Position numbers and translations under genes: made by a program
Assembly: GCF_004345675.1 (NCBI RefSeq)
Contig: NZ_SLWU01000015.1
Span: forward strand, 1 to 57,144
DNA length: 57,144 nt
Source: Caldanaerobacter subterraneus
Lineage (GTDB): Bacteria > Bacillota > Thermoanaerobacteria > Thermoanaerobacterales > Thermoanaerobacteraceae
Direction: 5' to 3'
The notes under the pieces: generated by a model
Told to the model about the DNA's origin: nothing
Seen by the model: only the letters and a program-made list of their open reading frames with translations
Database searches by the model: none
In this document: positions 2,927 to 3,776 of the stretch, piece by piece
Layout of the letters: each line of letters opens with the position of its first letter
Numbering within the stretch: position 1 is the stretch's first letter

Positions 2927-3373
2927 ATGAAAATACAAATAATAGCTGTTGGAACTATTAAAGAAAATTATATAAAAGAGGGGATAAAATTTTATCTGGA
3001 CAAGCTGAAGAAAATATATGATATTGAAATTGTTGAAGTAAAAGAAGAAGAGGACCCTGGTACTCCAGCAAGTAGAGAAAAGGTGCTAAAGACAGAAGGA
3101 GAAAGGATTTTATACAAAATTGACAGGGAAAGCTTTGTGATAGCTCTTGCCATAGAAGGGAAAGAAGTTTCAACCGAAGAATTTGCAAGCCTTATAAAGA
3201 AGGCTTTTGGTATGGGATACAAAAAAGTAGTCTTTGTAATAGGCGGTTCACTGGGCATATGGGGAAAAGTCAAAGAAAGGGCTGATGTAAACATCTCTTT
3301 TTCTAAGATGACTTTTCCTCATCAGCTCACAAGGCTTTTGCTTTTAGAGCAAATTTATTATGCTCTTTTGTAG
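2927..3373 (+). CDS. RlmH-like SPOUT methyltransferase lacking the C-terminal tail
   Basis: RlmH methylates N3 of pseudouridine 1915 in helix 69 of 23S rRNA on assembled ribosomes, using SAM. This 148-aa protein keeps the knot and SAM-site region (FVIGGSLG, then MTFPHQLTRLLLLEQIY), but it stops at YYALL. Normal RlmH continues about 11 more residues to a conserved PYHK/PYHR tail that contributes to the rRNA or active site. No other frame past the stop restores the tail, so this is truncation and not a simple frameshift. A second RlmH-like gene, convergent and 1 nt away, has the tail but a damaged SAM loop. RlmH is a homodimer with a composite active site, so the two may act together. Start ATG follows AGAGG. 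Confidence 0.85.
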   Translation: MKIQIIAVGTIKENYIKEGIKFYLDKLKKIYDIEIVEVKEEEDPGTPASREKVLKTEGERILYKIDRESFVIALAIEGKEVSTEEFASLIKKAFGMGYKKVVFVIGGSLGIWGKVKERADVNISFSKMTFPHQLTRLLLLEQIYYALL

Positions 3374-3374
3374 T

Positions 3375-3776
3375 TTATTTGTGGTATGGTTCATTCCTCA
3401 ATATTTTATAAGCGCGGTAGAGCTGTTCTGCGAGGAGCGTAGCAGTTAATCCCTTTGACATTTTCATTTGCGAAATTGTAAGTATTTCATCAAAAATCTC
3501 GATTCCTTCTCCTATTAAAAAAGTTATATCTGTTATGGATTTCATTTCTAGGTCCTTTATCTTTAAAGCAAATTTTTCAGAAGAGATGGTTTTCCCTTGA
3601 GGTGTAATCAATATTTTATAAGATTTTTCCAAATCTTTTACAGGAAGTTTTTTTGAATTTTTACAGATTGAAAGAGAAATGCTGCAAAACCTCTGCAATC
3701 TCTTAAAATATTCCTCTATGGCTTCTTGGAAAAAGGGTTCTATTTTTTTGGCTATGATAAAAAACTTGTAGTTCAT
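3375..3776 (-). CDS. Second RlmH-like protein, tail kept, SAM loop shortened
   Basis: The 133-aa protein aligns by eye with RlmH along its length: N-terminal [13 protein letters not shown], a central ISSEKFA (RlmH: LSSEEFA-like), a knot strand FLIGEG, and the canonical end [20 protein letters not shown]. The usual IGG-x-G loop and the MTLPHQL segment are replaced by [12 protein letters not shown] and [10 protein letters not shown], so SAM binding is doubtful. It is transcribed from its own region divergent from tyrS; AGGTGA precedes the ATG, and TATAAT-like motifs lie 20-40 nt upstream. It converges on the tail-less RlmH homologue with a 1-nt gap. It may be a partner subunit of that protein or a decaying paralogue. 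Confidence 0.75.

Follow-up and report, generated by a model that had tools for sequence, protein, structure and literature searches.

Complementary loss of RlmH active-site residues in two convergent genes of Thermoanaerobacter, a putative heterodimeric 23S rRNA methyltransferase

Two convergent RlmH homologues at one locus

The stretch of Caldanaerobacter subterraneus DNA analysed here (57,144 nucleotides, hereafter the window) contains two convergent open reading frames, alpha and beta, whose stop codons lie 1 nt apart. A preliminary description had reported tail-to-tail homologues of RlmH at this position: a plus-strand copy with the S-adenosylmethionine (SAM) loop but without the PYHK tail, and a minus-strand copy with the tail but without the loop. 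Both the coordinates and the matches to the family profile PF02590 (SPOUT_MTase) bear this out. The features of the locus are listed below; residues follow E. coli RlmH numbering, except for His132 of alpha.

2927..3373, plus strand: RlmH-alpha, 148 amino acids; putative SAM-binding subunit without a tail; PF02590 match in the ancestral htrA-yyzF-rlmH slot
3239..3256, plus strand: SAM loop of alpha, IGGSLG, glycine-rich (bight 2, E. coli 102–107)
3320..3322, plus strand: His132 of alpha (E. coli H129, SAM pocket)
3347..3373, plus strand: truncated C-terminus of alpha, EQIYYALL and stop; Y in place of R142, and no Y152, H153 or K154; fastest-evolving part of alpha
3375..3776, minus strand: RlmH-beta, 133 amino acids; putative tail donor without a SAM pocket; PF02590 match and fold model
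3378..3428, minus strand: end of the catalytic helix and tail of beta, 17 residues (including E138, R142, Y152, H153 and K154)
3498..3515, minus strand: degenerate SAM loop of beta, IGEGIE, in the place of IGGSLG
3699..3704, minus strand: Lys25-Arg26 of beta (E. coli R25 and R26, rRNA-binding in the tail-giving monomer)

Alpha and beta score 157.5 and 82.8 bits respectively against PF02590 (cut-off 27), values far enough above the cut-off to exclude a chance match; together with conservation across ten genomes (see below), they rule out that either is a chance or mis-called reading frame. Alpha aligns to profile positions 1–144 of 154 and ends in LLLEQIYYALL, and the alignment of beta extends to profile position 154, with LIGEGIE at the IGGSLG site and about 16 amino acids missing after strand 2. 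Against the NCBIfam RlmH equivalog model NF000985 (cut-off 172), alpha scored 192.5 and beta 69.8. A predicted structure of beta (pLDDT 88.8) matched Bacillus subtilis YydA (1to0; Z 18.5, rmsd 1.8 over 131 residues) and other RlmH structures (4fak, Z 18.0; 5twj, Z 17.4; rmsd 1.8–2.0 over 127–132 residues), the next SPOUT families giving Z values of about 10. By structural match, this model places beta in the trefoil-knot SPOUT fold, an assignment that covers the fold and not the knot topology itself. The model of alpha was of moderate quality (pLDDT 74). Neither a third PF02590 gene nor a hidden full-length rlmH is present in the genome of the window (2.58 Mb, 100% complete), a point on which the preliminary description had proposed a check.

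Partition of the composite active site

RlmH, the smallest SPOUT methyltransferase, is normally the product of one gene and a well-studied homodimer, in which two identical chains share an asymmetric active site. In E. coli the SAM-binding monomer contributes L72, I74, the G103–G107 loop and L122–V132, with K11, K42 and R43 facing the RNA; the second monomer supplies E138, R142, Y152, H153 and R154, with R25 and R26 facing the RNA (Koh et al., 2017; PMC5430550). Homodimers of the E. coli Y152F, H153F, R154A and E138A/Q variants are inactive while still dimeric and SAM-binding, and the second SAM site of the wild-type dimer is empty below about 500 uM SAM (PMC5430550).

These residues were mapped in 21 alphas, 24 betas and 15 full-length RlmH proteins. 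On the SAM side, G103, G107 and H129 are each present in all 21 alphas; among the betas H129 is never found (0/24), G104 occurs once (1/24) and the G107 column is deleted in 19/24. On the tail side, K25, R26, R142, Y152, H153 and K154 are each present in 24/24 betas and E138 in 23/24, and the alphas have neither Y152 nor K154 (0/21 each) and only rarely R142 (2/21). Positions 25 and 26 are relaxed in the alphas (Asp25-Lys26 in that of the window), seven of which have a histidine aligned near H153. The segment bearing K42, a monomer A residue, is retained in alpha and mostly deleted in beta. As read from these sequences, the residues kept by alpha and by beta correspond to the SAM side and the tail side, respectively, of the composite site described for E. 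coli, and the losses go beyond those first described in that the catalytic Arg142 is also gone from alpha. Of the features that mark each chain of a conventional RlmH, the SAM pocket (L72, IGGxxG, H129) was found in alpha and not in beta, and R142 with Y152-H153-R/K154 in beta and not in alpha; taken together, the two proteins have every RlmH feature once.

We therefore regard it as highly probable that alpha and beta constitute an obligate heterodimeric RlmH with one m3Ψ1915 active site, made up of the resident RlmH and an acquired tail donor. Alpha would bind SAM, as beta no longer could; beta would dock on alpha as in the antiparallel dimer typical of RlmH, and its tail (E138-R142-Y152-H153-K154) would insert beside the cofactor held by alpha to form a single composite active site that would N3-methylate pseudouridine 1915 (Ψ1915) in helix 69 of 23S rRNA. 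As an alpha2 dimer would be without a tail and a beta2 dimer without the cofactor, neither homodimer is expected to be active and only the mixed pair should work. An obligate heterodimer had already been suggested in the preliminary description, and the complementary losses support that reading, in which both pairing and methylation are predicted.

Alternatively, alpha may be active alone through a changed tail mechanism, with beta serving as a non-catalytic regulator or RNA-binding accessory, as could be argued from the seven alphas with a histidine near H153 and from the SPOUT enzyme Trm10, which functions as a monomer (PMC9508554). However, Y152 has been lost from 21/21 alphas and R142 from 19/21, and E. 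coli mutants at these positions abolish or cut activity; moreover, the C-terminus is the least constrained part of alpha (see below) and the catalytic residues are precisely those kept by beta. We consider this alternative improbable. It is also very unlikely that the two proteins form a heterodimer directed at a new RNA target in place of Ψ1915. Such a change would be in keeping with the absence of the RNA-facing K42 loop from beta, and the substrate is not readable from sequence; but the genome has no other RlmH, helix 69 of the genus is that of E. coli and the RNA-facing residues K25, R26 and K154 are invariant in beta. Helix 69 was identical to that of E. coli in the genus genomes with an assembled 23S rRNA (the draft genome of the window yielded no 23S), and RluA-type pseudouridine synthases are present. 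An intact helix 69 is compatible with methylation of Ψ1915 by the alpha–beta pair.

Conservation, ancestry and occurrence of the pair

Exactly one alpha and one beta, adjacent and convergent, were found in 10/10 genomes of the genus Thermoanaerobacter (T. wiegelii, T. thermocopriae and others), four of which are single-contig assemblies; genomes from other genera of the order had a single full-length RlmH in 14/14 cases. The 1-nt gap is peculiar to the genome of the window: in the nine remaining genomes of the genus, alpha and beta share 10 nt at their 3' ends. No stops or frameshifts were found in alpha or beta in the ten genomes, and pooled pN/pS, calculated over nine of them with the divergent window genome left out, was 0.21 for alpha and 0.21 for beta, which indicates that neither gene is decaying. 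Within the genes, pN was 0.012 over the last 13 codons of beta and 0.134 over the remnant C-terminus of alpha (codons 141–155), the highest value within alpha; as judged from these rates, the end of alpha is no longer strongly constrained. A survey of the Thermoanaerobacterales and an analysis of selection on both copies had been proposed in the preliminary description, and in both the pair emerged as intact and not relaxed.

Phylogenetic analysis placed all betas in one clade (support 99/98) and grouped the Thermoanaerobacter alphas with full-length RlmH proteins from sister genera (95/85). Constraining alpha and beta of Thermoanaerobacter to one clade was rejected (AU test, p 1.7e-9), and alpha occupies the same htrA-yyzF-rlmH slot as in the sister genera. 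Tree placement, slot and the rejected joint clade together identify alpha as the resident RlmH and beta as a protein of separate ancestry, and the AU test excludes beta as an in-genus duplicate of alpha. Beta is accordingly viewed as a tail subunit that has passed between bacteria by horizontal transfer. In the order of events that we favour, the resident RlmH would have dropped its tail after the separate tail-donor lineage had been acquired. Alphas are scattered over the tree; a clade uniting those of Thermoanaerobacter with the Lachnospiraceae-type alphas was rejected (p 0.005), and a single origin of all alphas was not formally rejected (AU p 0.087); the tail was more probably lost at least twice independently.

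A GTDB species scan combined with whole-genome searches identified beta in 14 genomes from outside the genus, all with exactly two PF02590 genes. In 11 of the 14, all Bacillota, the partner of beta ends at profile position 141–149 of 154 and has no tail, some of these genomes being incomplete MAGs in which a full-length rlmH might be hidden. The arrangement of the two genes in these genomes was as follows.

Convergent: L054/G427, G060 and G313; also G424, with 2.5 kb in between
Tandem, on one strand: L051/G426, L057/G428, L114/G429, G078 and G415
Unlinked, on different contigs: G423 and G425

Given this variety of layouts, the link between beta and a partner lacking the tail is not a position effect. 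In a phylum-wide sample of 398 genomes, PF02590 was found in 323 and beta in seven, all seven of which also had a truncated alpha. Among the approximately 155 matches listed for this sample, all extended to profile position 154; a repeat run on the eight single-copy genomes with the lowest scores gave alignments ending at 153–154.

These data bear on the alternative raised in the preliminary description, namely a decaying duplicate, in which rlmH was duplicated within the genus and both copies are degenerate or one is a pseudogene. Although conserved RlmH motifs are indeed missing from both proteins, the reading frames are uninterrupted in ten genomes, pN/pS is equally low in both genes, the joint clade is rejected, and the losses are complementary, not random, and recur in the 11 other Bacillota genomes. 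We reject this explanation as extremely unlikely.

Other genomes of the phylum sample with two PF02590 hits (G129, G146, G176, G183, G284 and G290) were considered as possible pairs; their hits proved to be due to gene fragments, to frameshifted, split or duplicated copies, or to weak and spurious matches. Among them, G129 carries, 2.5 kb away from an intact rlmH, a copy of the last 32 codons of the gene (C1:2792850–2792945), as an element integrating at this site would leave, and in G146 the intact rlmH is accompanied, at a distance of about 7 kb, by a second copy with a frameshift (C1:2442774–2443246), a true decaying duplicate for comparison. In a genome from another family of the class, about 2 kb separates the two parts of rlmH, which also has an internal TGA, an arrangement with the appearance of an insertion (G032:C1:1748688–1751202). 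A search of plasmids and phages found no beta and matched full-length rlmH copies only.

Beta behind rlmH in Bacillales and comparison with known systems

SCC elements, SCCmec among them, integrate at the 3' end of rlmH. In Brevibacillus massiliensis (G420), Cytobacillus gottheilii (G421) and Bacillus mediterraneensis (G422), beta follows, in convergent orientation, a full-length rlmH ending in RGDAYHTKP and a stop, with T in place of K/R154 and both Y152 and H153 kept; the junction DNA is nearly identical among the three. Beta can thus coexist with a nearly complete RlmH, a point against an obligate heterodimer. The DAYHTKP end was present in 2 of 398 Bacilli drawn and beta in the same two (chance 1 in 79,003), two genomes that had themselves helped to prompt the search. 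A third Bacilli match to beta (G713, E 2e-32) was in fact an ordinary full-length RlmH. The following features were identified in C. gottheilii.

G421:C1:238486–269910 (L196, L197): composite island of SCC-like type located at the 3' end of rlmH; beta is its first gene after rlmH
C1:260619–262223: large serine recombinase, 534 amino acids (PF07508 match at 261174–261500), about 22 kb downstream
C1:262187, 266490 and 269892: repeats of the rlmH end of the EPYHK-stop type, about 23, 27.5 and 31 kb downstream

With its insertion at the 3' end of rlmH, the displaced repeats of that end and a large serine recombinase, this region is classed as an SCC-like island; the same three elements make up the known anatomy of such islands (PMC10061031). 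No recombinase was found near beta in G420 or G422, and no island around the alpha–beta pair of Thermoanaerobacter. The arrangement suggests that islands which damage the RlmH tail upon integration carry a spare tail, namely beta. More tentatively, and with somewhat less than even confidence, we propose that SCC-like islands at the rlmH end swap the last tail codons (DAYHTKP) and bring beta as their first gene to provide a tail in trans. With beta present the host tail would be free to decay, until the heterodimer became obligate and the host addicted to a gene of a mobile element, a state that would have become fixed in Thermoanaerobacter and several Clostridia.

Further genes were observed around beta in these Bacillales. 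In B. mediterraneensis, genes for a large ATPase-like protein, a 106-amino-acid protein and an HNH-endonuclease-like protein lie between rlmH and beta (G422:C1:2994177–2997935, L200) and transposon-like genes follow on the opposite side; by eye the region has the look of a defence island. Behind beta in Brevibacillus and Cytobacillus there are paired small paralogous open reading frames of about 105–150 amino acids with an RFPWA/KFPWA motif (L040, L041), perhaps island cargo.

The need for both sites of the RlmH dimer had been open, and a lineage with a single composite site would indicate that one per dimer is enough in vivo. For structural work and for ribosome complexes, alpha and beta would also provide subunits that are already separate. 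As a case of the evolution of a homodimer into a heterodimer the pair would be a clean example, its second subunit having come from outside and not from local duplication, and one that would tie this process to the rlmH 3' end, the site of SCC integration.

No description of a heterodimeric RlmH was found in the literature searched, which was mostly without subscription papers, and no paper treating Thermoanaerobacter together with RlmH was found in a search with most subscription papers outside its reach. A 2022 review of SPOUT enzymes contains no heterodimer (PMC9508554). One competent SPOUT subunit does suffice for RNA methylation in an engineered heterodimer of the nosiheptide-resistance methyltransferase (wild type plus R135A; PMC4409310), although that dimer is man-made, belongs to another SPOUT family and is not a natural division of labour of the kind proposed for alpha and beta. 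The yeast proteins Ygr283c and Ymr310c (COG2106), the one pair for which a 2007 survey proposed a possible SPOUT heterodimer, resemble alpha and beta as a proposed pairing of active and inactive paralogues; they are, however, eukaryotic and of another family, and in the accessible part of that source they are not described as having lost pocket and tail in a complementary manner (PMC1829167). Like the beta island of C. gottheilii, SCC and SCC-like islands are inserted where rlmH ends, but a tail-donating RlmH subunit is not mentioned as cargo in the accessible part of PMC10061031. Also among the closest known systems is RlmH/YbeA/OrfX itself (COG1576, PF02590; E. coli 5TWJ, Staphylococcus aureus 4FAK, B. 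subtilis 1TO0), with which alpha and beta share the fold, the composite-site residues, the htrA-adjacent slot and, probably, the substrate; whereas each chain of a known RlmH carries both pocket and tail, in alpha and beta these roles are divided between separate genes.
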